This document shows, in pieces, positions 144 through 21,579 of a stretch of 64,000 nt of DNA. Below the pieces are notes generated by a model. The model ran no database searches and was not told the origin of the DNA. It was given only the letters and a program-made list of their open reading frames with translations. The position numbers were made by a program, and so were the translations under genes. Where the stretch lies: assembly GCF_006539345.1 (NCBI RefSeq), contig NZ_BJMV01000002.1, positions 1 through 64,000 of the forward strand, written 5' to 3'. Within the stretch, counting starts at the first letter, position 1; each line of letters starts with the position of its first letter. The stretch is from Acetobacter peroxydans (GTDB lineage: Bacteria; Pseudomonadota; Alphaproteobacteria; Acetobacterales; Acetobacteraceae).

Positions 144-1949
144 ATGGTGGATTTTGCAAAAAATAAGCATGATGAAAGGCAAGCAGATCACGTAAAATTT
201 GACTTTCTTGGCATGAGTCCGGATTTTTACACGAAAATACTGGACGATCTGCCCGTAGCTATTATGGCTGTTGACCCAGAAACATTCGTGATCATCTATA
301 TTAATAAAGCGTCAATATGTCTGCTCAGGCAGATAGAAGCGCTCCTGCCGCGTGGGGTGGACAGTATACTGGGCTCCACCATTGATATATTTCATAGTAA
401 TCCTGCGCATCAGCGAAGTATCCTTTCGACGGAGGCGTGTATGCCTCACCGTGCCCGTATCTCTCTTGGAGGAGAGACGCTGGACCTCCAGATTTCTCGG
501 GCGGCTCTGGAAGGAGGCGAGGGCGCCATCCTCGTCCTGACATGGTCAATTGTCACGCAACAGGTCGAGGTGGAAAAACATATCTGGAAATTGGCGCATT
601 ATGATGCGCTGACAGGGCTGGAAAATCGTCATGCCTTTGGTCAGCGTCTCAGCCGAGAGGACGGCGCGCCTTTGGCGGGCGGTGTGCTACTGATCGGCCT
701 CGATGGTTTTGAAGCGATCAGCGACCTGAATGGGCGGCATGTCGGCGAAGGGCTGATTGTTCAGGTGGCGGATCGGCTACGTCTGGCTTGTCAGGGGCAG
801 GATGCTCATATCGGACGGCTGGAGGGACACCAGTTTGCCATGCTTGTGCCCTATGCCGAGCGTGAGCGCCTTGAGGCTTTTGCTCATGAACTGGTGGCGC
901 TTCTGGGCCGCCCCTATTGGTTAGGGCAGAAAATGCTGCCCGGTGTTACTGTGGTTATAGGGATTGCGCAGCAGCCGCAGCATGGCATGGGCAGTGACCG
1001 GTTGATTGCACGGGCGGATATTGCCATGCGTGTGGCTAAAAGCCAGCGCAAGAGTGCTGTCGCATTTTTTCAGCTCGATATGGAGCAGTGTCTGCTTGAG
1101 CGCGTACTGCTTGAGCAGGATTTACGTCGTGCGCTGGAAACAGGCGAGGGGCTGTTTGTTTTCTATCAACCAATCATGGAAATCAGCAGCGGGCGGGTCA
1201 GCACGCGTGAGGCGCTGGTGCGGTGGCATCGGCCGCAGTGGGGATGGGTATCTCCGGCAGATTTCATTCCCATAGCGGAGGAGACGGATCTTATTGAGCA
1301 TCTGGGCGCTTTTGTGCTCAGGCGTGCCTGCTGGGATGCGCTGGTCTGGGGGGATTCGGCGCGCGTTGCGGTCAACATGTCGGGGCGGCAGTTTGGCCGT
1401 CAGTCTCTTGTTCCGGCTGTCATGGCGGCATTGGATGAAACGGGCCTGCCGGCTGAGCGGCTTGAAATCGAGATAACGGAAACGGCCGCCCTTGCAGAAG
1501 ACGCGGATGTGCTGGCCGATCTCCATTGTCTGCACGCCATGGGCGTACGCATTTCTCTGGATGATTTCGGGACTGGGTATTCATCCTTTTCTCATCTACG
1601 GACATTCCATGTGGACAAAATCAAGATTGACGGGTCTTTCGTGCGGGATGCTGCGAAAAAGATCGAATGTGCCTCAATCGTGAGAGCGGCTGCCGATATC
1701 GGCAGAAGGCTTGGTATTCCCGTTGTGGCAGAGTGCGTGGAAACAGAAGAACAGTTCCACAGCATTGTATTGGAGGGATGTACGGAGGCGCAGGGATATT
1801 TTATTTCAGTGCCCAAGCCGACAGCCCGCGATCTGGTTACTATAAATATCATCAATCGAAGTGAAGATGATTTATTCTTTGTTAAAGGGGATAAAATGGA
1901 TATTTATTTTTCTTGTAATGATAGGTTAAGAGAAATTTATAGCATGTAA
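144..1949 (+). CDS. PAS-GGDEF-EAL cyclic-di-GMP signalling protein, probably a phosphodiesterase
   Basis: Cytosolic signalling protein of 601 residues with no evident membrane segment. A PAS-like sensor (about residues 25-135) is followed by a GGDEF domain (about 150-310) and an EAL domain (about 325-575). The GGDEF domain keeps the LTGLxNR opening, but its active-site loop reads EGHQF near residue 227, so cyclase activity is unlikely. The EAL domain looks competent: EALVRW near 356, an ITET motif, DDFGTGYS near 473 and KIDGSFV. The usual AEGVET reads AECVET. The likely reaction is hydrolysis of cyclic di-GMP, with the degenerate GGDEF domain perhaps acting as a GTP or ligand sensor (inference). 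The start is an ATG with GGA eight bases upstream. The next gene, a chemoreceptor, follows after 56 bases and may be co-transcribed. The signal sensed by the PAS domain is unknown. Confidence 0.88.
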   Translation: MVDFAKNKHDERQADHVKFDFLGMSPDFYTKILDDLPVAIMAVDPETFVIIYINKASICLLRQIEALLPRGVDSILGSTIDIFHSNPAHQRSILSTEACMPHRARISLGGETLDLQISRAALEGGEGAILVLTWSIVTQQVEVEKHIWKLAHYDALTGLENRHAFGQRLSREDGAPLAGGVLLIGLDGFEAISDLNGRHVGEGLIVQVADRLRLACQGQDAHIGRLEGHQFAMLVPYAERERLEAFAHELVALLGRPYWLGQKMLPGVTVVIGIAQQPQHGMGSDRLIARADIAMRVAKSQRKSAVAFFQLDMEQCLLERVLLEQDLRRALETGEGLFVFYQPIMEISSGRVSTREALVRWHRPQWGWVSPADFIPIAEETDLIEHLGAFVLRRACWDALVWGDSARVAVNMSGRQFGRQSLVPAVMAALDETGLPAERLEIEITETAALAEDADVLADLHCLHAMGVRISLDDFGTGYSSFSHLRTFHVDKIKIDGSFVRDAAKKIECASIVRAAADIGRRLGIPVVAECVETEEQFHSIVLEGCTEAQGYFISVPKPTARDLVTINIINRSEDDLFFVKGDKMDIYFSCNDRLREIYSM

Positions 1950-2005
1950 TGTTTGCTTTTTTCTTTAAACATAATTAATGGCTTATTAAAATAGGAGTAT
2001 TCCCC

Positions 2006-3479
2006 ATGATTGATCTAAAAAAAGCGCTTCCTTCCTGGAACAGTGCGGATCAGAAGACCGGACAGAGTGTATGGAACGCCGTGAACGGCGATCTGGAGAA
2101 AATTCTTCTGCGCGCCTACAAGGCGGCAGATTCCAGCCTTCAGGTTATGAAAAGTGACGTTCTGGCCGAAGAAGTAAGGAAATTTTCCTACATTAGTCAG
2201 GGGAATTTCTGTGATGACTATTTTGCCGTGCAGGAGCGCATCTCAAACCGTCTGGCGGGCGAGGTGGACTACATCCGCTATCTCAGTCAGGTTTACGCGC
2301 AGTACGTCAGCGGTCTTGTCGAGAGTCTCGTCAAGAAAAAATCCCTGTTTAGTGGAAACAGGAATCAGTTGATCGAGTCTCTTATCAAGTCAGTGATGTC
2401 GGATATATCCGTTGTGATGTATCATTACTTCATTCAGTTGAATAAGGAAGCCGATGAGGCGCGCGCAGCGGCTCAGGCCGAGCGCGAACATCGTGCGCAG
2501 GAAGATCGTAACGTCATTGTCGTCATTACCGAGGCGCTGGCCGCCTTGTCCGATGGTGATCTGACCTACCGTATCGAAAGCAGTATGCCAGAGCGGGTCG
2601 AGGTGCTGAAGGATAACTTCAATGCTATGGCAGAACGCCTTGCCGATACCATGAAGCGGATTTCTGGTAACACGCAGGATGTTATGGCGAATGCTGATGG
2701 TATCCGTCAGAGCAGCGATGACCTGTCCCGCAGGACAGAGCAGCAGGCGGCGACACTGGAGGAAACCTCAGCGGCTCTGGCGCTGGTTACGCGCAGAATC
2801 CGGCAGACAACGGAAGAAACGCAGCAGGCGCACAAACTGGCGGATGCTGCACGCGGCGATGCCATGCAGTCCGCCACAGTTGTTCAGAACACGGTTGATG
2901 CCATCGCCAAGATTGAGCAATCCTCTGAAGAGATCGCCAGCATTGTCGATATTATCGGCAACCTGTCCTTCCAGACCAATATTCTCGCGCTCAATGCCAG
3001 TGTTGAAGCGGCGCGCGCGGGCGAGGTAGGGCGTGGCTTCGCTGTTGTGGCGAGTGAAGTGCGGGTGCTGGCGCAGCGTTCTGCCGAAGCCGGGAAAGAC
3101 ATTTCTGCTCTGGTCAGCCGGTCCGGTACGCATGTGGCGGCAGGGGTCGCGCTGGTACGCGAAACCGGGGAACTGCTCCAGCGCATTGTGACGCAGATTC
3201 AGGATATTAACGTCCTGGTCTCCAACATTGCCTCCGCAGCGCAGGAACAGTCATCCAGTATGAGCCAGATTGGGATTGCCATGACGGACATGGAGCAGAC
3301 CCACGCAACAGAATGCTGCCGTGGCGGAGGAAAGTGCCGCGGCCAGTCATAACCTTGCAACAATGTCTGATGAACTGGCCCGTCTGGTGGCGCAGTTTAA
3401 ACTGGATGAGCGTTCGGTTCAGTCTGCAAGGCAGATTGGCAGGACTGCATCACGCAGCGGTGGTCTGCGGCTTCTGTAA
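2006..3479 (+). pseudogene. Soluble methyl-accepting chemotaxis protein, frameshifted near the 3' end
   Basis: Chemoreceptor without transmembrane segments. Residues 1-150 form a helical sensor region that vaguely resembles a globin-coupled (protoglobin) domain, but I see no convincing haem-ligating histidine. A HAMP-like stretch (about 165-215, containing SDGDLTYRIE) leads into an MCP signalling domain whose hairpin tip carries FQTNILALNASVEAARAGE. As read, the frame ends at 3352 with 448 residues and a nonsense tail. Removing one C from the CCC at 3300-3302 restores a typical MCP ending (TTQQNAAVAEESAAASH) through to a TAA at 3477-3479, about 490 residues. AGGAG eight bases before the ATG supports the start. 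Only the last C-terminal helix is lost, so the truncated product might retain partial function. A real mutation and a sequencing error cannot be told apart here. Confidence 0.85.
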
Positions 3480-11540: not shown

Positions 11541-13025
11541 CTAGTACTGAATCCATACGGTTTTCAGCGCGGTGTATTTGTCAAAACTGTGCAGCGAGAG
11601 ATCGCGCCCGAAGCCGGATTGCTTGACACCACCAAACGGTGTCATGACTGAAAGCGCGTCAACCGTATTGACCGATACGGTGCCCACCTGCAGCCGCTCG
11701 GACAGGTCGAGCGCGCGCCCGATATCGCGTGTCCAGACAGAGGCGGCGAGGCCATAGGGCGTATCGTGCGCCAGTGTCAGGGCTTCCTCCTCAGTGCGGA
11801 AGGCCTGGATGGCCAGCACCGGCCCGAAGATTTCTTCCCGCGCGATGCGGGCGTCAGGCGGGACATCGGCAAAAACAGTCGGCTGGATGAACGCATCCGA
11901 TGCGCCAATGCTGATCCGCTCGCCCCCCGCCACAAGGCGGGATGTCGCCCGGCCCGAGGCCAGAAATTCCGCCACGCGCCCGGCATGGCGGGCATCGACC
12001 ATCGCGCCCATACGGGTTGCGGGGTCAAGCGGGTTGCCGGGCGTGATGGCTTCGGCGCGCTGGCGCATCCGCTCGGTCATGTCCTCGGCTATGTCCGCGT
12101 GTACCAACATGCGTGAATTGGCTGAGCAGACTTCGCCCTGATTGAAGAAAATGCCAAAGGCGGCCTTGTCGGCGGCGGCATCCAGATCAGCATCGGGGAA
12201 GATGATGTTGGGGCTTTTCCCGCCGGTTTCGAGCCAGACGGGTTTCATGTTGCTTTCACCCGCATAGCGCATGAACAGCTTGCCCACATCGGTCGAACCC
12301 GTGAACACGAGGCAGTCTACATCCTCATGGCGGCCAAGGGCCTGTCCAGCTTCCTCGCCAAAGCCCGGCACCACGTTCAGCACGCCATCGGGCAGGCCTG
12401 CTTCCGAGGCCAGTTCGGCCAGACGCAGGGCGGAGAGAGGTGACTGTTCAGCCGGTTTGAGCACCACCGAGTTGCCAGTCGCCAGAGCCGGAGCCAGTTT
12501 CCAGATGGCCATGTCCAGCGGGAAGTTCCACGGCACCACAGCCCCGACAACTCCCAGGGGCATACGGCGGATCATGGCAATATCGCGCCCGCCGGTGGGG
12601 GCGACTTCATCATAGATCTTGTCGACGGCCTCGGCGTGCCATTGCAGGAAATGTGCCGAGCCGGGCACATCCACGGTCATGGTTTCCGTAATGGGCTTGC
12701 CCATGTCGAGCGTGTCGAGCAGGGCAAGTTCTTCATGATGTTCACGGATGAGGGCCGCAAGGCGTAGCAGCACGTCCTTGCGCGCCGTGGGCGACAGGCG
12801 CGACCAGCGGCCATCGGCAAAAGCGGCGCGGGCGGCTTTCACCGCCCTGTCGATATCCTCGGCCCCACCGCGGGCAACCCCTGTCAGCACCTGCGCCGTA
12901 GCCGGGTTGATGCTCTCGAAGCACGCACCGGACGCGGCGGCAACAAACCGCCCGTTGATCCAGCAACGGTTGCGCAGAGTCAGGCGCGCGGCCTGCTCGG
13001 TATAGTGGGACAGACTTTGCATCAC
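11541..13025 (-). CDS. NAD(P)-dependent aldehyde dehydrogenase (PuuC-like)
   Basis: Aldehyde dehydrogenase of 494 residues, full length for the family. Motifs: VVPWNFPLDMAIWK (substrate/cofactor region), VFTGSTDVGK (NAD-binding turn), LETGGKSPNI (general base Glu) and FFNQGEVCSANSR (nucleophilic Cys). The C-terminal GVKQSGFGRDLSLHSFDKYT is typical of the gamma-glutamyl-aminobutyraldehyde or betaine aldehyde dehydrogenase branches, and PuuC is the closest type I recognise. It converts an aldehyde to a carboxylate, probably the product of a cluster oxidase. It overlaps the upstream monooxygenase gene by four bases, so the two are translationally coupled. Substrate uncertain. Confidence 0.9.
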   Translation of the reverse strand: MMQSLSHYTEQAARLTLRNRCWINGRFVAAASGACFESINPATAQVLTGVARGGAEDIDRAVKAARAAFADGRWSRLSPTARKDVLLRLAALIREHHEELALLDTLDMGKPITETMTVDVPGSAHFLQWHAEAVDKIYDEVAPTGGRDIAMIRRMPLGVVGAVVPWNFPLDMAIWKLAPALATGNSVVLKPAEQSPLSALRLAELASEAGLPDGVLNVVPGFGEEAGQALGRHEDVDCLVFTGSTDVGKLFMRYAGESNMKPVWLETGGKSPNIIFPDADLDAAADKAAFGIFFNQGEVCSANSRMLVHADIAEDMTERMRQRAEAITPGNPLDPATRMGAMVDARHAGRVAEFLASGRATSRLVAGGERISIGASDAFIQPTVFADVPPDARIAREEIFGPVLAIQAFRTEEEALTLAHDTPYGLAASVWTRDIGRALDLSERLQVGTVSVNTVDALSVMTPFGGVKQSGFGRDLSLHSFDKYTALKTVWIQY

Positions 13026-14281
13026 GCGTCCTTGCTGGCGGGTTGATAGGCCATGTAGCGGCGCTGCTTGGCAATGTGATCCGCGACGTATTTCGCATCA
13101 TGCCACACGCCCCAGATAAAGGAGGAACCGCGACGGGTCTGCCAGGGCAGGCCTAGAAAGTATATGCCCGGCTCGGAGGAAACGCCACGCTGGTGGCGCG
13201 GGCGGCCGCTTTCATCCAGCGCCTCAACTTTCAGCCAGCCGTAATCCACCCCAAAGCCCGTGGCCCAGATAACGGTGCCGACGCCGGCTTGTTTCAGGTT
13301 CAGTTCCAGCAGCGGGTTTGTTACGCAGTCCGGGTCGGGCAGGAAGGTGTGCGCCTCGGGTTCAGGCGGCAGGTCAAGGCCGTTGCGGGTGATGTAGGCA
13401 TCGGCTTCGCCCAGCAGGGACAGGTAGTTGGCATCACCATGGGCGATGTTCTGCGCCAGATCGGGGGCAAAGTTCAGCGTACCGTCACGATATGTTTCCG
13501 TGCGGCCCAGCAGGGTCATGCCCTCGGCTGCCAGACGCCGGAAATCAACCGTGTGGCCGCCATTGGCACCGCTGACGGCAATGGTGGTGTGTTCAACCCC
13601 CGGCGTTGCTTCCGCATCCCATTTGTTCAGCACGCCCAGCCACCAGACAAAATCCCGCCCACGGTAGCTGCGCGGCGGACGGTCATGCGGGCCAACGGAC
13701 AGATAGACCTTACGGCCCGCGTGCATGAGTTCTTCGGCAATCTGCACACCGGAAGAGCCCGCGCCCACAACCATGACAGCGCCTTCGGGCAACTGTTCCG
13801 GGTTGAGGTAACTGGCCGAGTGAATCTGAAGAAAATCGGATGACGCGGGAATGACCGGCGGAACGACAGGGATCTGGAATGGCCCCGTAGCAGCAACCAC
13901 AGCCTTGGCTTCGATCACGCCTTCGGAGGTTTCAACCTGAAAACCCGTACGCCCGACATTGCGGCGGACTTCCTTGACCTCCACACCACAGCGGATTGGC
14001 GCATCAATAATAGTGGCATAATCGACCAGATAGTCAGCAATGCGTTCCTTGGCTACGAAATCATCCGGGTTGTTTTCTGAAAACTCAAGACCAGGAAAGC
14101 GGTCGTGCCATGCCGGGCCATTGGCTACCAGTGAATCCCACCGGCAGCTCCGCCAGCGTTCGGCAATACGGCTGCGCTCAAGCACAAGATGGTCAATGCC
14201 GTATGCGCGCAGGTGTTCGCTCATGGCAATTCCGGCCTGACCGGCGCCCACAACAAGGACTTCGGTTTTTTCGACGGACAT
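13022..14281 (-). CDS. Flavin-containing monooxygenase (FMO-like, FAD/NADPH)
   Basis: Two-dinucleotide-fold flavoprotein of 419 residues. The FAD site VLVVGAGQAGIAMSEHLR begins near residue 7 and the NADPH site VMVVGAGSSGVQIAEELM lies near 165. Between them FLQIHSASYLNP resembles the FMO signature (FxGxxxHSxxY) without its glycine. A later ATGFGVDYGWL motif is typical of the family. Such enzymes N- or S-oxygenate small molecules, or act as Baeyer-Villiger-type oxygenases. I place the start at 14281 because AAGGAG precedes that ATG by six bases; an ATG six codons upstream lacks this. It is the first gene of a two-gene unit with the aldehyde dehydrogenase. Confidence 0.85.
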   Translation of the reverse strand: MSVEKTEVLVVGAGQAGIAMSEHLRAYGIDHLVLERSRIAERWRSCRWDSLVANGPAWHDRFPGLEFSENNPDDFVAKERIADYLVDYATIIDAPIRCGVEVKEVRRNVGRTGFQVETSEGVIEAKAVVAATGPFQIPVVPPVIPASSDFLQIHSASYLNPEQLPEGAVMVVGAGSSGVQIAEELMHAGRKVYLSVGPHDRPPRSYRGRDFVWWLGVLNKWDAEATPGVEHTTIAVSGANGGHTVDFRRLAAEGMTLLGRTETYRDGTLNFAPDLAQNIAHGDANYLSLLGEADAYITRNGLDLPPEPEAHTFLPDPDCVTNPLLELNLKQAGVGTVIWATGFGVDYGWLKVEALDESGRPRHQRGVSSEPGIYFLGLPWQTRRGSSFIWGVWHDAKYVADHIAKQRRYMAYQPASKDA

Positions 14282-14334
14282 GACCGTCTCCTTTTGCAAC
14301 GCCGCTTTGTTTCTGGAAGCGGCTTATTGATGTC

Positions 14335-14344
14335 ATATCGAAAC
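14335..14344 (-). promoter_or_regulatory. Shared promoter motif, copy 2
   Basis: GTTTCGATAT on the minus strand, 54 bases upstream of the monooxygenase start; identical to the sequence at 10969-10978 before the permease gene. See that entry. Confidence 0.35.
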
Positions 14345-14396
14345 GAATGAAGGCGTGCGGGTGCGTATCCGTTTCGCGGTTCAGTGGTGCCGGGCT

Positions 14397-15074
14397 TTAT
14401 TCGTCGCCCGGCACGCCGTAGGAGGGGGCGGCCTCGGGGTTAAGGCAGCGCGTGACGTAGTCGTGCATCTGCGGCGCCCAGACATCCCACAAGGCGCGCA
14501 GGCGTGTAATGGGGTCTTCGTCCCAATCCACGCGCAGGTCAGCCAGAGGCCATTTTTCGCGGTCCACCACCAGCAGGCCGGCGGACTTTACGGGGCCGGC
14601 TTCTCCTCCGGCTGCAATGCCCGCCTGCATGGCCTGAATAACGCGCAGGCCCAGTTCCTGCTGTGGGTCAGACTGGGTAAAGCTGTTCGCAATTGCCTGT
14701 GGCACGGCTTCGGTGGCCAGCAGATTGCCGGCACAGGCTACATTCACGCTTTCAAACTGGGCGTTCAGGCCAAGTGCTTTCTCGCCAGACCACAGGGCCG
14801 TGCGTCCGTCCCGGTCAATCAGGCTCATCTGGCGATAGGCAGGATAGGTGCACCTGCTGATGATGATGTCACGCGCCTGCTCGGCTGAGGCCCCGGCGGC
14901 CATCAGATCGAGCGCCCACGGACCAAGACGCGGGTCCGTGACATTCTGCGTGGTAACGGCCCCGATGCCTGCCCGGGCAAAGGCGCAGCGCGCCGCAACA
15001 GCCGGAGAGGAGGAGGAAACGGCCACGGCAAACTGGCCCGTGCGGGAACAGCGCGCAACAATGGAAAAGGTCAT
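14397..15074 (-). CDS. DUF1028 family protein (Ntn-hydrolase-like)
   Basis: Protein of 225 residues in the DUF1028 family, recognised from the opening MTFSIVARCSRTGQFAVAVS, the AARCAFARAGIGAVTTQNVTDPRLG stretch shortened here to its core, and the GNLLATEAVPQAI block. The fold is predicted to be of the Ntn-hydrolase type (threonine or serine peptidase/amidase-like), but no activity is established for the family. Members are often found with RidA and M20 peptidase genes in catabolic clusters, as here. The start at 15074 matches the conserved beginning of the family; an ATG ten codons upstream is open but unlikely. It forms its own unit upstream of the monooxygenase gene. Confidence 0.85.
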   Translation of the reverse strand: MTFSIVARCSRTGQFAVAVSSSSPAVAARCAFARAGIGAVTTQNVTDPRLGPWALDLMAAGASAEQARDIIISRCTYPAYRQMSLIDRDGRTALWSGEKALGLNAQFESVNVACAGNLLATEAVPQAIANSFTQSDPQQELGLRVIQAMQAGIAAGGEAGPVKSAGLLVVDREKWPLADLRVDWDEDPITRLRALWDVWAPQMHDYVTRCLNPEAAPSYGVPGDE

Positions 15075-15231
15075 GGTTCCGGTGTCTCTTTGATAAGAAA
15101 ACAAAGGCTGTCAGGGGGAGAAGCTCCGACAACAGGGAAAACGTAACACCATTATTTTGGCACCGGAACATTGACTTTCCGGGGCTCTGGTTCCGTTTTC
15201 CTGATGTCGATATGCGCAGGGCATCAGGGAA

Positions 15232-15390
15232 TTATAGAAGCGGCGGAGGCGCCAGCTTCAGGACGCATAGCCAGATCATGATGAGTGTAGTGAGGTAGAT
15301 GGCCGAAAAGAAGACATCAGGGTATCTATTGTGGCGTGCTGAGACACGACGCCAGTTCTTCAGGCGCGTCACATGAATTCTGCTGGTCCG
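15232..15390 (-). pseudogene. IS5-family transposase remnant, C-terminal part
   Basis: A short minus-strand frame reading RIHVTRLKNWRRVSARHNR then YPDVFFSAIYLTTLIMIWL matches the C-terminal end of IS5-family transposases, where the pattern is RIEIMFGRLKDWRRVATRYDR...FFSAIALAATVIFWL. Only the last 40 or so residues are left, with no catalytic DDE residues other than the region near the last Glu, which has itself been altered. It lies at the left edge of the AT-rich quorum-sensing block. Identification is from memory of the family consensus. Confidence 0.7.
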
Positions 15391-15824
15391 GGGTTCCGCT
15401 TTTCCAGCGGCCAAGCCATATGCCATCCGGGAGGAAATTCCCATCGTGCCCGAGTATTTCCGGAGCTTATACTTGGTAATGAACGCAGTAAATGTTTTAT
15501 GTAATTTACATTTTTTGTATTCAATGACGATCTGATTGTATCAGATCGCTGATCTTCAAAGACAAAGCTACATTTACTAGAACACGTGGTGTGTCATTTC
15601 CATGGTGCCTGTCAGAATGATTTCTGACGGGTTTTTTGTCGTTTGATGATCCAGAAATAGATTTCCTCAATAAAAATCGATCATGGTGACGTGCCCCCCC
15701 CCGGGGAATGTAACCAGTTCCAACCTTCCACCGATCTAGCGATATTGATAGGTCATTTTAGAGGGGAAGATATAATAGTATAAAAAATATATGTTTATTT
15801 AGTATTTCTGTAGAGAGAGCATCG
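15391..15824. other. Non-coding AT-rich stretch before the 215-residue gene
   Basis: No convincing gene. It contains a run of nine C followed by GGGG at 15694-15706 in TGACGTG-C9-GGGG, which looks like the end of an insertion element but is attached to none. A possible -10 box TATAAT lies at 15771-15776, in AT-rich DNA leading to the next gene; a TTGATA at 15745-15750 is spaced 20 bases away, longer than ideal. A partial dyad GATCTGATTGTATCAGATC is visible near 15531-15549. Confidence 0.5.
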
Positions 15825-16472
15825 ATGAGTGCATTGTTAGATTCCTATATTGATGTCGAAAAAGATATTTATACAGAAATAGTTCATCCTTTTATTGTTG
15901 AATCGATTGGTGTATTGGCTTCTGTACTCAAAAATACAGATATGACCGGCCGTCGGCATTTTATAGATATGGTGTACCACGATAGTAATCGTAGAACTGA
16001 GTTTGCACTTAAGCTGGCAGCTTTTGTTTTGCACGAAGTGAATAAAATTTCACCACCGGATGCTGGAGCAGTGGCAGCCAACATTATCCAATTAAGTCCG
16101 GACCTCGGGATTGGAACAATTAGTACAGGACAGTTGCTTTATGCTAGTGCATTGTACGAAGGACGTAGTAAAATAACAAATTTTGACTTCGAGTCTATCC
16201 TATATGATGATAATATAGAAAACACATCGCTTGGTTTTCAAGTGGGTAAATATCTGGCACTCAACTGTATTGCAAGTTGGGTATGTATGCTGTCTGTCAG
16301 TTCGGAATATGAAGTATCTGGCGTACTGCGTCTCGGTGGGCGCGAAAGCAAAAATGTTATAAACCAACTTTTTATTTATAACTGTATTAAATCTATAAAT
16401 GTTTTTTCTGGCATATCTTCTGTGTTTGATGAAATTTATAAACAAGCTAAACTTATATCAACCCGAATTTAA
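15825..16472 (+). CDS. Uncharacterised protein next to luxR/luxI
   Basis: Protein of 215 residues that I do not recognise. It has no signal peptide or clear membrane segment and is mostly predicted helical, with acidic and aliphatic residues mixed. The DNA is much more AT-rich than the surrounding chromosome, with many A/T-ending codons (ATA, AAA, TTA), consistent with acquisition from elsewhere. GAGAGAG a few bases before the ATG serves as a ribosome-binding site, and an AT-rich promoter-like region precedes it. Its 3' end overlaps the 3' end of the convergent luxR by 20 bases, so the two genes have probably travelled together. The position suggests a quorum-controlled or quorum-modifying role, but that is inference only. 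Confidence 0.75.
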   Translation: MSALLDSYIDVEKDIYTEIVHPFIVESIGVLASVLKNTDMTGRRHFIDMVYHDSNRRTEFALKLAAFVLHEVNKISPPDAGAVAANIIQLSPDLGIGTISTGQLLYASALYEGRSKITNFDFESILYDDNIENTSLGFQVGKYLALNCIASWVCMLSVSSEYEVSGVLRLGGRESKNVINQLFIYNCIKSINVFSGISSVFDEIYKQAKLISTRI

Positions 16473-17196
16473 TTGCTTTTGCCACAGCCCCACAGGTCGT
16501 TTGTGCGCAAAGTTTATGCCGAGCCGTCGCAAGATAAAGTCTTACAGTCGCTTCAGAGATATTCAGTCTGTAAGACACTTCCTGCGTCATCAAACCCTCG
16601 CCATGGTAAGCAAGACATTCTCGTTCGCGAATAGATAACCGAGGAGGAGCCAGGGCCTCTCGGCGCCCTCCATAATTAGCGAACCATTCATGCATGTATG
16701 CACCAATCTGAGAGAATGTTGCCGCGTAAACCCTTCGCCGGTCTTGCCCGAAATCATGGATATTGCGACTGGTTATAGTCAGAAGGCCAACTTCACCACG
16801 TAATCCTCTTAACGGGATGGACATTCCGTCCTTGCCCATATTCTGTTCAGAAAAAAGCTGCATGACCCGTTTCTCTTTACGAGAGAGTATCTTTATTTCT
16901 GACCACAAAAAAGGAAGTGCACTGGTTAGTGCGGTACGGACTACCGGATCTGAATGAACAAGATTCTTTTCAGTATACAAGATTTGCCATGATAGCGGGT
17001 ATGTCGTAACCCCCAATTCTCCTCCCTGTCTGACCCAAGGGTTGGATAGAAAGTGGTAGGTGAGATGGGCCGCACCGCTATTATCCCTGATCTCGAATGC
17101 CAACTCCTGCATTATAGAAATGCTTTCGCATGACTGAAGACGCTCGAGAAGGGTATCCCCTAGGGGGAGCAGTGCATTGTGTGTATCAGGAACCAT
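16453..17196 (-). CDS. LuxR-family quorum-sensing regulator (GinR-like)
   Basis: AHL-responsive transcription factor of about 247 residues. The N-terminal ligand-binding domain has the hallmark SWQILYTEKNLVHSDPVV (W, Y, D-P spacing) near residue 75. The C-terminal helix-turn-helix reads LSIRERECLAYHGEGL, EVSYRLNISEATVRLYL and ARHKL. It is encoded directly downstream of a luxI gene, fitting a cognate pair, and in Gluconacetobacter such a pair is known as GinI/GinR. The open frame can begin at a TTG at 17211; I prefer the ATG at 17196. The initiation region sits against a hairpin (17207-17231), so translation may be structurally controlled. The gene is AT-richer than the chromosome around it. 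Confidence 0.9.
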   Translation of the reverse strand: MVPDTHNALLPLGDTLLERLQSCESISIMQELAFEIRDNSGAAHLTYHFLSNPWVRQGGELGVTTYPLSWQILYTEKNLVHSDPVVRTALTSALPFLWSEIKILSRKEKRVMQLFSEQNMGKDGMSIPLRGLRGEVGLLTITSRNIHDFGQDRRRVYAATFSQIGAYMHEWFANYGGRREALAPPRLSIRERECLAYHGEGLMTQEVSYRLNISEATVRLYLATARHKLCAQTTCGAVAKAIKFGLI

Positions 17197-17206
17197 TGCG
17201 ATTAAC

Positions 17207-17231
17207 GCCAACCAAGGTATTCTTGGCTGGC
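17207..17231 (-). promoter_or_regulatory. Hairpin in the luxI-luxR junction
   Basis: GCCA-A-CCAAG (17207-17216) pairs with CTTGG-C-TGGC (17222-17231) around a 5-base loop; only one position is mismatched. It fills most of the 45-base gap between the luxI stop and the luxR ATG and contains the only GG-rich sequence that could serve as the luxR ribosome-binding site. It could modulate luxR translation or processing of the luxI-luxR message (inference). Confidence 0.55.
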
Positions 17232-17241
17232 ATATAGGATT

Positions 17242-17820
17242 TTAAGCGGCCAATGCAAACTTTTTATTAATTTCTTCAAGACGCGCCTGCGACACATCAA
17301 ACGTGGCAAGCGTAATCGTCTTCCCTTCAAGTTGAGCGCTCATAATAGGTTCAGGTGGCCAGCCCGCACGTTCATAAATCCGTAACATCGGCCGAAAAAA
17401 GATACCTGTAAGATGGGTAATTCCGTTTTCGAGGCACGTTTGACACAGAGTGCGTGCTAACTCACCTGTATAATGTATCTCACCAGGTTGTAATGTTGCG
17501 CAGTAACGGGTGCTTTCCCATATTGTTGGACTATAAATATCCGGGCAATCTGGAAAAAATGAATGAAATTTGTCACGCAACATTGTCGGTCCCGTGGTGG
17601 GGATAATACGCATGGATGTTGCGTGCGAACCATCAGGCCGCTCTGCTACAAAATAGAGCGAGTTATACTCCCGATCATATTCGTCTTCTTCTTTTCCATC
17701 TACAACCTTAACATCCCAATTCAAGCGGTCTGAAAAAACAATAGCACGTGCTCGAAGCATTTTTTCATATGTTTGTGCGTGGAAGCGTCTTTGATTGTAA
17801 CTAAATACTTTTATCATCAC
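17242..17820 (-). CDS. LuxI-family acyl-homoserine lactone synthase (GinI-like)
   Basis: Enzyme of 192 residues that makes an N-acyl homoserine lactone from acyl-ACP and S-adenosylmethionine. All residues invariant in the family are present at the expected spacing: Arg25, Phe29 and Trp35 in RARAIVFSDRLNW, Asp46 and Asp49 in EEDEYD, Arg71 in SMRIIP, and Glu102 and Arg105 in WESTRYC. A GGGAGG ribosome-binding site lies about seven bases before the ATG pair. It is the first gene of a luxI-luxR unit; the promoter region upstream carries a 22-base dyad. The order luxI then luxR on one strand is less usual than luxR-luxI. The acyl chain specificity cannot be read from the sequence. Confidence 0.93.
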   Translation of the reverse strand: MMIKVFSYNQRRFHAQTYEKMLRARAIVFSDRLNWDVKVVDGKEEDEYDREYNSLYFVAERPDGSHATSMRIIPTTGPTMLRDKFHSFFPDCPDIYSPTIWESTRYCATLQPGEIHYTGELARTLCQTCLENGITHLTGIFFRPMLRIYERAGWPPEPIMSAQLEGKTITLATFDVSQARLEEINKKFALAA

Positions 17821-17853
17821 AAACCTCCCTATGGAGATTTTGATTTATTCAAC

Positions 17854-17875
17854 ACTAATATCATTTATAATTAGT
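17854..17875. promoter_or_regulatory. Dyad upstream of luxI, lux-box-like operator candidate
   Basis: ACTAAT (17854-17859) and ATTAGT (17870-17875) form a symmetric element of 22 bases centred about 45 bases upstream of the luxI start. LuxR-type proteins bind roughly 20-base palindromes near this position. It does not match the classical CTGT/ACAG ends, and the local DNA is AT-rich, so it is only a candidate. Confidence 0.35.
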
Positions 17876-17928
17876 CAATATTGATGGGTTCTCTAATTAT
17901 AAATTAATTATATAATCGAAATTTTGGC

Positions 17929-18023
17929 GCATACGCGAACGGACGTCCGCTCGACTTCTTCATGACAGCAGGTCGGATCAGTGATTATACCGGTGCTGCT
18001 GCCCTTCTGGACAATCTCCGACA
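17929..18023 (+). pseudogene. IS5-family transposase fragment (central part, left piece)
   Basis: Plus-strand reading gives ANGRPLDFFMTAGRISDYTG then AAALLDNL, the central region of an IS5-family transposase. It is cut off directly at the left end of the IS3 element. A continuation of the same kind of reading frame is found on the other side of that element at 18828-18982. Confidence 0.7.
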
Positions 18024-18091
18024 GTAATCCCCCCATAAAGAGAGCGGCTTCTGAATGAGAATTTTCTCAGCGTAAGAATGAGGAGATTCTG

Positions 18092-18331
18092 ATGAAGAGT
18101 GATCGCTTTACTGACGCACAGATTATGGGTGTGATCCGCCAGGCTGAGGGGGGCGTATCTGTCCCTGATCTGTGCCGGAAGCAGGGGATCAGCAACGCCA
18201 CGTTTTACCGGTGGCGCGCGAAATATGGCGGCATGGATGTGTCGATGATCAGTCAGATGAAGGCTCTGGAACCTGCTTTTGCTATTGTCCGCGACTGGCC
18301 GCGGAGAACGACAGGATTGCCGATCTTCTGA
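18092..18331 (+). pseudogene. IS3-family orfA (helix-turn-helix), truncated
   Basis: Starts with MKSDRFTDAQIMGVIRQAEG and contains [21 protein letters not shown], the helix-turn-helix of IS407-type OrfA. Family resemblance stops after MKALE, about residue 54. The leucine-zipper part is missing and the frame runs into unrelated residues until the stop. Confidence 0.75.
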
Positions 18332-18654
18332 TGGGACTGATCCAGGCTCACAGGAGATGGGGATTTGGCCTGTGTTTCCTGTATCTGCGCAATGTGCAGG
18401 GACAGATCTGGAATCATAAGCGGGTTTATCGGATCTATCGGGAACTGGAACTCAACCTGCGGATTAAACCCCGCAAGCGTCTGGTTCGCGAAAAGCTTGA
18501 AAAGCTGTCGGTCCCAGCCTTTCCCAACTGGGTCTGGTCCATGGATTTCATCGCGGACAGGCTTTTGGATGGGTGTGCTTTTCGGCTCCTGAACATTCTG
18601 GATGGCTTCAATCGTGAAGGGCCGGCGATTGAGGTTGAGTTTTCCTTGCCGGCC
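18298..18654 (+). pseudogene. IS3-family orfB transposase fragment
   Basis: Carries the block with [27 protein letters not shown], then [15 protein letters not shown] and [12 protein letters not shown], which is the first part of the DDE domain (first Asp in SMDF). The second Asp and the Glu are lost because the fragment ends at VEFSLPA and joins the right inverted repeat. It has no start codon of its own in the correct frame at the junction. Not functional. Confidence 0.75.
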
Positions 18655-18827
18655 TGTCCGCTGCCTGAATTCTCATTCAGAACCCCACTAAAAAGGGGGG
18701 AGATTACCATCCTACCAAAGGTGGCATGAGAACGAAGCCCTGTGCCGCGAGCAACAGCAATGGGAAGAGTCTGAGTTTCTTCGTGAGCGTTGGTTAGGTC
18801 GGTGGCTGCAAAGGGCTGCCCACCTTT

Positions 18828-18982
18828 CTCGATAGTCTGCCAAAGGCTCAGTGGTTGCTGGCAGACTGGGACTATGATGCCGACTGGTTGCGTAAGGCCC
18901 TTCAGGCGAACAGAAGCAGACTGCGCATTCTCGGGCGGAAATTCTGCGTTCGCCCCGTCGAGCACGACAAACGCCGCAACTG
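18828..18982 (+). pseudogene. IS5-family transposase fragment (right piece)
   Basis: Reads LDSLPKAQWLLADWDYDADW then LRKALQAN and GRKFCVRPVEHDKRRN, corresponding to the IS5-family segment ADRGYDADWFRDALQAKG...PVKHDKRR. The usual ADRGYD is ADWDYD. It continues, after the IS3 element and about 120 unassigned bases (18708-18827), from the piece at 17929-18023. It breaks off before the C-terminal part, next to the end of the deacylase gene. Confidence 0.7.
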
Positions 18983-18993
18983 TCATGCTCTGG

Positions 18994-20067
18994 CTATGAG
19001 CCCTGAGGCTGGGCCGTCAATTCGGCAGGCCGTGCCAGGCGCACTGCCGTATGTCCCCGGCGCACCCGGAAATTGGGCATGACCAGCATACAGTTGTCGT
19101 AGGGTGTGCGGATTTCATCCGGCCCGTCCAGTGCGATTACGGTTCCGGCTGAAGGGATGATTTCCGCGCTGGCATAGGCACGCACAAAGGCAAAGCTGGC
19201 AGTGTGGGCCTGTATGCAGTCTGTAACAGTTGCTGTTTGAACCGGCTGATATTTGCAAAGGCCGGTTTTTGTGTCCTGTTCTGTCGCGGGAGTAATTCCG
19301 GTCTGGGCCGCGCACTGCTGCACCGCGAGCAGCGCGATCTGCGCGGCACTCTGGCTCCAGTGCTGCCCGGTCTCCAGCAGGCAGGCGCGCGCCAATCCGC
19401 CTTGGGCGGAAAACCGCACATAGTCGATCAGCCTGCTGCCATCCTGATGTCCCTCATCATGGATAACGAGTGGCGTGGGAGACAGGGCAGCCGCCAGTTG
19501 GCAGGCCATATCGTGGTTACGCTCCTGCCCGCTATGCAGGAAAAGCGGCGGGCCGGGCCAGAGCATGGAGTGCAGGTCCAGCAGCAGGTCGGCGGTTTCG
19601 ATAACCGGCAGCACTTCGCGCAGGCGGCGCATTTCAAGGGAATCGTGGTGGGATTTGATCAGTTCCGGCCGCCACAGACGGTTCATGTCTTCTTCCACGT
19701 AGCGGGCGCGGGTGGGGTGGGCCGGGTTGTAGCGCGCATATGCGTCGGGGTTGAGAAAGATCAGGCTCAGGCGTCCATGACGGGGCAGGGGGCCTTTTTT
19801 CAGCAGCGCGTTCAGCGCATAAGCGCCTGAGGGTTCGTTGCCGTGCATCAGGGCAGTTACGACAACATGCGGGCCACGCTGGCCGCTTTCAAAATGATGC
19901 ACGCCCCGCAGTCCACAGTTTCCTGCAAGCCAGGGGGTCAGGTCAGGAGGAGGGTATTGGGGTGGAGCAGTCGGTGGCGTAGGCAGAGGCAGGGGCAGGG
20001 CGGCGGATACGGTGCGTACGCGCACGCGTCGCAGCCCCGCATGATGGCGTTTGGACGCGCAACTCAT
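18994..20067 (-). CDS. Zinc-dependent deacylase of the aspartoacylase / succinylglutamate desuccinylase family
   Basis: M14-like zinc enzyme of 357 residues. Zinc ligands appear in ALMHGNEPSG (His and Glu, near residue 75) and LLDLHSMLWP (His, near 165); the region LARACLLETGQH holds the usual catalytic Glu. The family removes acyl groups from N-acyl amino acids (AspA, AstE), but no ast operon is nearby, so the substrate is open. A proline-rich segment (residues 20-45) precedes the catalytic domain. AAGGGG five bases before the ATG at 20067 supports this start. The C-terminal end lies only 12 bases from an IS5-family remnant, but the domain appears complete, with a final beta-strand RVRRGHTAVRLA. 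Confidence 0.85.
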   Translation of the reverse strand: MSCASKRHHAGLRRVRVRTVSAALPLPLPTPPTAPPQYPPPDLTPWLAGNCGLRGVHHFESGQRGPHVVVTALMHGNEPSGAYALNALLKKGPLPRHGRLSLIFLNPDAYARYNPAHPTRARYVEEDMNRLWRPELIKSHHDSLEMRRLREVLPVIETADLLLDLHSMLWPGPPLFLHSGQERNHDMACQLAAALSPTPLVIHDEGHQDGSRLIDYVRFSAQGGLARACLLETGQHWSQSAAQIALLAVQQCAAQTGITPATEQDTKTGLCKYQPVQTATVTDCIQAHTASFAFVRAYASAEIIPSAGTVIALDGPDEIRTPYDNCMLVMPNFRVRRGHTAVRLARPAELTAQPQGS

Positions 20068-20241
20068 GTCTTCCCCTTGGCGCTGTCCTGCGCGTTGCCA
20101 TCATGGCGTATTCGCCAAGGACGTAAGAGGAACAGGGAAAAAGGTCTGGCCCGCATGGTGGCGAAGTATGGTTCGGGTTATGATTCCCTGCAATCCCCAA
20201 CCTGTTGCCTTGCCCTTTCGTGAGCGACCTTCTGGCGGTGC

Positions 20242-21456
20242 CTAACGTGCTCGGCGGTTTTTCTGGGTCTCCTGCTCGGTGGGCAGCGCCTGCTCGGGGC
20301 TGAGAATCCGCAGTTTGACACCGGCGCCAACTTCCACCTGCCGCAGGCGTTTGCGCTCGGTGGCGGCACAGAGAGTCAGGGCCGAGCCTTTCTGTCCCCC
20401 GCGGCCGGTGCGGCCAATGCGGTGCAGGTAGGTCTCGGGCTGTTCGGGCACATCATAGTTGATCACCTGCGCTACGGCGGTGATATCCAGCCCGCGGGCT
20501 GCGACATCGGTTGCAACCAGAATGAACAGGCGTCCTGCGCCAAAACTGGCCAGCGTGCTGGTGCGGCGCTCCTGTGTCAGGTCGGCATGAAGGGGGGCGG
20601 CGGCGAATCCCGCCTTGCGGAGTGTTGACGCAAGCAGGTCGGCTTCGGCCTTGGTGCGAACAAAAACGATGCTGCGTGTTTTGGGGGCTCGGCTGAAGAA
20701 GGTCTTGAGAAAAGCCACCTTCTGCGTGTCTTCCATGAACAGCGCACCCTGACGGATCGGGCCGCGCTTGAGCGGTTCACGCTCCACGGTGATTTCCTGC
20801 GGTTTGTACAGCAGGCTGGCCAGCAGGTTGGCCTGTTCATCCGGCCGGGTGGCTGAGAATACAAGTGTTTGCCGGGGCTTGGGCAGATGGTCGAGCAGGG
20901 CAGAGGTTTCATCCAGAAACTCGGCGGAAAGCAGGCGGTCGCCTTCGTCCAGCACGAGGCTGGCGCAGTCATCAAGAGAGCACTGGCCCGCCAGCACAAG
21001 GTCAAGCAGGCGACCGGGTGTGGCGATCAAAATCTGGGTGCAGGGGCGTGTCAGGTCCGAGGTTGCCTCCACCAGTGCCTGTGTCTGTTCCGTACGGTCG
21101 GTGCCGCCGATGATGGGCACCACCGGGACGAGGGGCTGGCTGGTGGTTTTGCCCCGCCCTGTTGCGGCTCCCATGCAGTGCAGGAAGACTTTCGCGGTCT
21201 GAAGCACAAGGTCGCGCGTGGGCAGCAGCACCAGAACCATGCGCGCCTTGCGCGTTTCCAGCAGCGTCTGGATCAGCGGCAGCGCATAGGCGGCGGTTTT
21301 GCCTGTGCCGGTGGGAGCAGTGGCCAGAATGTCGCGCCCCTGCAGAATGGCCGGAATGGCGGCAGCCTGTATGGGGGTGGGCTCTGTCAGCCCGGCTTGG
21401 GCGGCCATGGCGCACAGAACGGGGGACAGGCCTGTGTTTTCGAAGCTGTCAGCCAT
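20242..21456 (-). CDS. DEAD-box-type ATP-dependent RNA helicase with DEGD motif II
   Basis: Superfamily 2 helicase of 404 residues. Ordered motifs: Q motif (GLTEPTPIQAAAIP), motif I (ATAPTGTGKTAAY), Ia (PTRDL), Ib (TPGRL), II (VLDEGDRLL), III (FSATRP), V (VATDVAARGLDI) and VI (HRIGRTGRGG). Motif II reads DEGD instead of DEAD; the Asp-Glu needed for magnesium and ATP hydrolysis are kept. The likely role is RNA remodelling in ribosome assembly or cold response, as in the RhlE group. There is a short C-terminal tail without an extra RNA-binding domain. It is transcribed alone and divergently from the ELM1-like gene. Confidence 0.88.
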   Translation of the reverse strand: MADSFENTGLSPVLCAMAAQAGLTEPTPIQAAAIPAILQGRDILATAPTGTGKTAAYALPLIQTLLETRKARMVLVLLPTRDLVLQTAKVFLHCMGAATGRGKTTSQPLVPVVPIIGGTDRTEQTQALVEATSDLTRPCTQILIATPGRLLDLVLAGQCSLDDCASLVLDEGDRLLSAEFLDETSALLDHLPKPRQTLVFSATRPDEQANLLASLLYKPQEITVEREPLKRGPIRQGALFMEDTQKVAFLKTFFSRAPKTRSIVFVRTKAEADLLASTLRKAGFAAAPLHADLTQERRTSTLASFGAGRLFILVATDVAARGLDITAVAQVINYDVPEQPETYLHRIGRTGRGGQKGSALTLCAATERKRLRQVEVGAGVKLRILSPEQALPTEQETQKNRRAR

Positions 21457-21579
21457 GCTGTTGCCTTTCTTGTGCTCTCGAATACGTTATGTAGTCTGAC
21501 GATGAAGTGCGGACTGCCTAATATAGGAATAATGGCGCGGCAGACGCGCCAGACGGGGTGTAGCAAAGGAAGGCGCGTG

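Follow-up and report, generated by a model that had tools for sequence, protein, structure and literature searches.

A quorum-sensing cassette very probably imported into an Acetobacter chromosome, with an orphan gene as candidate target of its regulator

We analysed the first 64,000 nucleotides of contig NZ_BJMV01000002.1 of Acetobacter peroxydans, a stretch hereafter called the window. It contains a compact block of three genes: luxI, predicted to encode an N-acyl-homoserine lactone (AHL) synthase, luxR, predicted to encode the corresponding regulator, and a gene for a 215-residue protein of no recognised family, here named X. The block is very probably an AHL quorum-sensing cassette imported into this Acetobacter chromosome. 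The best explanation for the whole, which we regard as reasonably probable, is that a plasmid-associated cassette was imported, that its LuxR would activate both luxI and X, and that X would be the dedicated target. The segment and its genes are as follows.

15237-19022, strand not applicable: inserted segment, absent from the sister genomes G428 and G416, where about 30 bp take its place (blastn)
15713-17936, strand not applicable: core module, one block common to the window and four other Acetobacter loci (blastn)
15825-16472, plus strand: gene X, an open reading frame (ORF) without family match, encoding an orphan protein of 215 residues predicted to be soluble and helical
16453-17211, minus strand: luxR-type regulator (PF03472 and PF00196), with a likely start at the ATG at 17196 judging from the start in relatives
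17242-17820, minus strand: luxI-type AHL synthase (PF00765), with TraI as nearest curated NCBIfam models

The acquisition is apparent from an empty site. G428 and G416 are the two nearest relatives of the window genome and both lack the module. A blastn comparison of 12501-21500 with these genomes gave a match that ends at 15235/15237 and restarts at 19022/19023, and just 30 and 29 bp lie between the matching flanks in the relatives. The flanking genes encode a DUF1028 protein (14397-15104) and an AstE/AspA-type protein (18994-20067). Among 49 genomes of the genus, 24 have DUF1028, and the two genes are adjacent in G428 and G416 only, being separated by the block in the window genome. X was found in 6 of the 49, the window genome included. 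A preliminary description of this DNA had suggested an acquired module, adding that the same block at the same position in most related genomes would speak for vertical inheritance; the empty site and the rarity of X support the suggestion, and no such shared position was found.

The nucleotide identity of the module points in the same direction. It is 93.3-93.6% between the window and A. fabarum, A. lambici and G403, 85.6% with A. okinawensis, 80.1% with G406 and 73.4% with Komagataeibacter saccharivorans (blastn). For comparison, over a stretch of 19.8 kb of chromosome the module-less sisters are both at 83-89% identity. From the blocks of this stretch longer than 1 kb, the backbone identity is 70-78% for A. 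fabarum, A. lambici and G403, 69-81% for A. okinawensis and 72-78% for G406. In the first three species the module is thus too similar for vertical descent. The block could instead be an old Acetobacter locus, inherited vertically and lost many times, that drifted to low GC and received insertion sequence (IS) elements later. This would fit the low GC of luxI and luxR in G407 and G420, two genomes without X, as well as the G406 copy, which lies on a contig with backbone genes and whose module identity is near the backbone values. However, the empty site in both nearest relatives and the high module identity to three species with diverged backbones speak against it. So do the neighbours of the other copies, which differ from those of the window, though those of A. 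lambici and G403 are alike on the luxI side, where the A. lambici contig has ORFs with the same beginnings as those beside the G403 module. We consider such a history highly improbable.

The composition of the block is also unusual. The 1-kb window 15501-16500 has 37.6% GC, the minimum of the whole 64 kb, and outside the block no such window falls below 46.4% (1501-2500), in line with the AT-richness first noticed by eye. Per gene, GC is 36.6% for X, 47.8% for luxR and 43.6% for luxI. Low GC alone is weak evidence of acquisition because luxI and luxR of the X-less G407 and G420 are likewise at 47-49%.

The link between X and the two quorum-sensing genes comes from a conserved arrangement and from a 16-bp near-palindrome, ideally CTATCAATATTGATAG, which occurs before both X and luxI.

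15736-15751, strand not applicable: operator-like, nearly palindromic sequence ahead of X, CTAGCGATATTGATAG; all 7 loci have such a site at 88-89 nt from the X start
17872-17887, strand not applicable: operator-like, nearly palindromic sequence ahead of luxI, reading TAGTCAATATTGATGG on the plus strand; all 7 loci have such a site at a nearly constant distance

In all seven loci the sequence before X has 1-3 mismatches to the ideal, and the luxI promoter carries a site with 4 mismatches 70-72 nt before the gene. None of the six luxI promoters scored at X-less loci has a site with at most 4 mismatches, the best being G427 and G272 with 5; the G420 promoter was left out of the scoring as its start was not found, and G333 was likewise unscored. 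In the window, only the X and luxI sites come within 4 mismatches. Matrix scans of the K. saccharivorans plasmid and of the G403 contig gave no further site that scores close to these two (the next best has 15.8 bits versus 19.5 on the plasmid and 16.2 versus 19.5 on the contig), these scans being done in pieces, so that sites spanning the joints were missed and weak or different sites are possible. Across the window genome, the X-type pattern was found once exactly (at X) and five times with 2 mismatches, and the reversed pattern twice. What is informative is the position conserved across two genera and the absence of further sites. X always converges tail-to-tail on luxR with a 20-bp overlap (7 of 7 loci), and luxI precedes luxR.

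LuxI and LuxR both look functional, since their alignments with LasI and LasR cover the presumed catalytic and ligand-binding regions. LuxI matches PF00765 (E 5e-28, 98.3 bits versus a cut-off of 24), as expected of a LuxI-type AHL synthase, and aligns with LasI over 139 residues, including R-x-x-x-F, W-D, E-x-D-x-Y-D, R-I-x-x-T-T-G-P and I-W-E, which we take to be the catalytic core. LuxR has both the AHL-binding domain (PF03472, E 2e-22, 80 bits) and the GerE domain (PF00196, E 5e-13, 49 bits) of a receptor. It aligns with LasR over 187 residues, with W..Y, DP and W, presumably the ligand site, in register. The dN/dS ratio (nonsynonymous over synonymous substitution rates) between the window and the other Acetobacter copies is 0.02-0.04 for LuxR (four copies) and 0.05-0.17 for LuxI (five copies), A. 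okinawensis luxR being excluded as a split gene. In that species luxR is divided into ORFs of 141 and 80 residues (L004:1685-2436, also L044), by a frameshift or a sequencing error, and X and luxI are open. The block of luxI, luxR and an unrecognised gene, as originally described, was thus recovered by ORF, Pfam and NCBIfam analysis.

We propose the following circuit. LuxI would make an AHL, and AHL-bound LuxR may bind the 16-bp operator-like sequence. The complex would then activate luxI, which would create positive feedback, and X, which would be the dedicated target of the circuit. Direct control of X by LuxR is likely, judging from the candidate sites. As a last and less certain step, X may be soluble and helical and act as output or relay, in the manner of GinA of Komagataeibacter/Gluconacetobacter intermedius, an 89-residue quorum-induced target that relays GinI/GinR (PMC5908849, PMC8102297). 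The two systems are alike as AHL circuits in acetic acid bacteria with a target protein, here a presumed one, of unknown mechanism, but GinA has 89 residues and X 215. ORFs of 82-96 residues are present at 8 other Acetobacteraceae luxI loci, and two of them have 89 residues (L012, L023).

Alternatively, X could be an antiactivator, induced by LuxR, that binds and blocks or destabilises LuxR and sets the quorum threshold as TraM does. This reading is nested in the proposed circuit to the extent that LuxR controls X. Antiactivators of LuxR-type proteins include TraM, QslA and QteE (PMC13043044), and traM is itself activated by TraR via a tra box (PMC3907764). X likewise appears tied to a LuxR-type circuit, being found with this LuxI/LuxR clade only and tail-to-tail with luxR in every locus. 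However, X matches no Pfam family, that of TraM included, and a contact with LuxR is hypothetical. Compared with its K. saccharivorans counterpart, the X of the window has 52% amino acid identity versus 85% for LuxR and 82% for LuxI, a faster evolution that fits poorly with a tight partner. Moreover, the circuit would be left without an output if luxI and X are its sole recognisable targets. If X is under direct LuxR control, the role of output or relay seems the more probable, and that of antiactivator a lesser but appreciable possibility; taken by itself, the antiactivator explanation is unlikely.

It could also be argued that X is a passenger, captured by chance beside luxI and luxR, and that the operator-like sequence before both X and luxI does nothing. 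Other luxI-luxR loci of the genus indeed manage without X, and G427 retains a luxI of the same clade without luxR or X. On the other hand, gene order, overlap and the near-fixed distance of the site are kept in 7 of 7 loci and two genera in which X is only 52% identical, and the dN/dS ratio of X between the window and the five other Acetobacter copies is 0.16-0.18. X is under purifying selection, and a passenger is quite improbable.

Several observations weigh against the proposed circuit or limit its reach. The module identities of A. okinawensis and G406 exceed those of their backbones by only a little and are of little use for judging transfer. The luxI site of the window, TAGTCAATATTGATGG, differs from the other six copies at two positions, and the G427 luxI promoter has its 5-mismatch site though X is absent. 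The top rank of the X and luxI sites in the matrix scans is no test and is partly circular because the matrix was built from those promoters. The genome-wide scan, which allowed at most 2 mismatches to the pattern seen at X, does not pick up the luxI site. No strong site precedes the replication or transfer genes of the K. saccharivorans plasmid and the G403 contig, unlike in TraR systems. The binding step itself is predicted for a candidate site, and it is from its gene content that the G403 contig is taken for a plasmid. Finally, the mode of action of X is a guess because its structural model is poor and gave no fold match. With these points taken into account, activation of luxI and X by LuxR in an imported cassette is still the explanation that we favour.

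As far as the searched libraries show, X appears to form an undescribed family. The window protein matched no Pfam family at E<=1; with seven members and E<=10, AAA_lid_8 alone appeared, at E 0.21 for one of the seven, and a TraM family match was absent. The NCBIfam search returned no family; in PHROGs the window protein had no match and that of K. saccharivorans a single one, at E 0.35. An identity as TraM, defence or phage protein was dropped, there being zero matches in the families searched. The highest 19-residue Kyte-Doolittle mean is just 1.47, so X is probably soluble. An AlphaFold2 model built on four sequences shows helices only, 8 in number, at a mean pLDDT of 54.5, and with this poor model Foldseek gave no match at E<=0.001 among 165 (best E 0.5). 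A profile search of the PDB gave 7q58 (E 1.5e-5), rejected as a repeat-protein artefact with no single stretch passing, and 3j9o at E 0.92. Two sets of remote matches were taken as chance: three found with a seven-row profile across the family (E 0.03-0.08, 34-62 residues in frames of at least 413 residues), and one in G427 (25% identity, E 0.005) lying antisense to an unrelated long ORF. Literature searches among open-licence papers showed nothing that describes X or its locus in the titles and opening lines of abstracts listed, up to 20 per search.

The distribution of X follows that of LuxI. A LuxI match is present in 20 of the 49 genus genomes. The six in which it is at least 89% identical to that of the window are precisely the six with X, and the remaining 14 (at most 81%) are without it. 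G427 has a luxI of the same clade (81%; L066:5865-6440). G420 (LuxI 68%) has luxI-luxR without X, as do G407, G030 and G333, three of the six genomes of a 56-58% LuxI group, these three being the ones covered. The loci of G030, G333, G407 and G420 resemble the window in gene order, with LuxR 45-47% and LuxI 56-68% identical, but X is absent from the genomes and from beside the genes (in G333, the sequence covered beyond luxR is about 460 bp, up to the contig end), and in the two that were scored, G030 and G407, the operator-like sequence is absent before luxI. In a LuxI tree of 26 chosen rows, with long branches elsewhere, the X-bearing rows and G427 form one group (89/93, below the strong mark), sister to X-less loci. 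This grouping suggests that X was gained with, or lost outside, the X-bearing clade; G427 has probably lost it. A second, more distant Acetobacter luxI set lies, by eye, beside a TonB-like gene (L015, L030, L034) and a photolyase-like gene (L015, L029, L030).

Beyond the window, the named Acetobacter of the genome collection with X are A. lambici (G405), A. fabarum (G400) and A. okinawensis (G412), already counted among the six, and X occurs on one of 72,556 plasmids, that of K. saccharivorans, giving seven distinct loci. In a sample of 397 genomes across the family, 14 of them from the genus, only the window genome has it. There was no match in 50,697 phage records, and none was confirmed in viral contigs. 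The shared DNA spans 15713-17936 at most, being 15732-17893 for G406 and 16044-17922 for K. saccharivorans (blastn, window coordinates), and the outer sequence of the window is absent beside the other copies. Upstream of X, the other five Acetobacter copies have, by eye, an extra stretch in common, which implies that the window copy was cut there.

The K. saccharivorans plasmid is typed MOBF and mobilizable. The 161-kb G403 contig (G403:C2) has RepC, ParA- and ParB-type domains and appears plasmid-like. Its RepC (54%), transglycosylase (SLT, 61%), SH3, DsbC (48%), DnaE2 and ClC (66%) proteins are 48-66% identical to those near the module on the plasmid; betC, a LysR gene, an antiporter and two hypotheticals of that plasmid stretch are unmatched on the contig. 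The A. fabarum copy adjoins TraG/VirD4-, TrbB- and TrbC-like conjugation genes. The copies of the window genome and G406 look chromosomal because their contigs carry backbone genes. Near the module there are also a TnpB/IS200-IS605 unit on the K. saccharivorans plasmid, where it is the annotated feature closest to X (L005:5512-7168), a PAS-GGDEF gene of cyclic di-GMP type in G403 (Pfam; L043:4897-5628) and BLUF-EAL-like ORFs in A. okinawensis (by eye; L004:3610-4850).

Rhizobiaceae quorum sensing ties plasmid transfer to cell density. The present module resembles the TraI/TraR systems of repABC plasmids in Agrobacterium and Rhizobium in that the two best NCBIfam models for LuxI are TraI/AHL synthase, and in that one copy sits on a plasmid of repC type, another on a contig with repC and another beside conjugation genes. 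Proteins similar to LuxI at E<=1e-30 occur in 85 plasmid records, 82 of them from Rhizobium, with 34-39% identity among those listed. In contrast to TraI/TraR, the scores here are far from the cut-offs (84.8 and 83.6 bits versus 292 and 250 for TraI, 41.3 versus 250 for TraR). TIGR03541 is the best model for LuxR, at 57.5 versus 215.6, and TraR the second; a TraM match and a strong operator before replication or transfer genes are lacking. Plasmid LuxI/LuxR modules are already known; what appears to be new is X and the operator-like site that it shares with luxI. We have here an AHL circuit of acetic acid bacteria whose copies occur in chromosomes as well as on two replicons with repC (a plasmid and a contig), with a LuxR-linked protein of no recognised family. 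It is a small testable circuit of two promoters and three genes in food-fermentation bacteria. We advance only tentatively the idea that X founds a new protein family and is the one output, private to the module, of an AHL circuit that travels on plasmids among acetic acid bacteria; in that case the signal would mainly control the mobile module's own protein and not host or transfer genes.

The borders of the insertion carry transposase remnants.

15253-15460, minus strand: IS5-family transposase remnant reading outwards, with its C-terminal part at 15253-15366 (tblastx)
17938-18018, plus strand: IS5-family transposase remnant, first part, 81% identical in amino acids to the K. xylinus pGX5 element (L080; tblastx)
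18008-18713, plus strand: IS3-family element in three pieces, internally deleted, interrupting the IS5 remnant (domain searches, nucleotide comparison)
18823-18957, plus strand: IS5-family transposase remnant, second part, 31% identical to the same pGX5 element (tblastx)

IS5 pieces had been reported at both borders, which is confirmed with about the right coordinates, but the IS3-family element that splits the right remnant had been missed. The left remnant is 66% (15253-15366) and 39% (15368-15460) identical in amino acids to the pGX5 IS5 (tblastx) and reaches E 5e-8 at best against plasmid transposase genes (tblastn); counting against this assignment, NCBIfam IS5_3 matched only at E 0.015, under the cut-off. 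The second right part continues on the pGX5 element about where the match of the first part stops, and the two are probably one split remnant because the IS3-family element sits between them. Against the IS5 assignment of the second part, the piece 18828-18998 searched alone in plasmids (tblastn, E<=0.01) had zero matches. No match was found in plasmids for the DNA of 15237-15712. A simple composite IS5 transposon, with two intact IS copies and a target-site duplication, was rejected: both IS5 pieces are fragmentary, no duplication is visible by eye at the junctions, and about 30 bp of host DNA were replaced. The IS3-family element has two internal deletions and 91-93% nucleotide identity to an A. 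ascendens copy. Elsewhere in the window, the AT-richest part outside the block (down to 46% GC) encodes a GGDEF-EAL protein and a methyl-accepting chemotaxis protein, at 144-3352.

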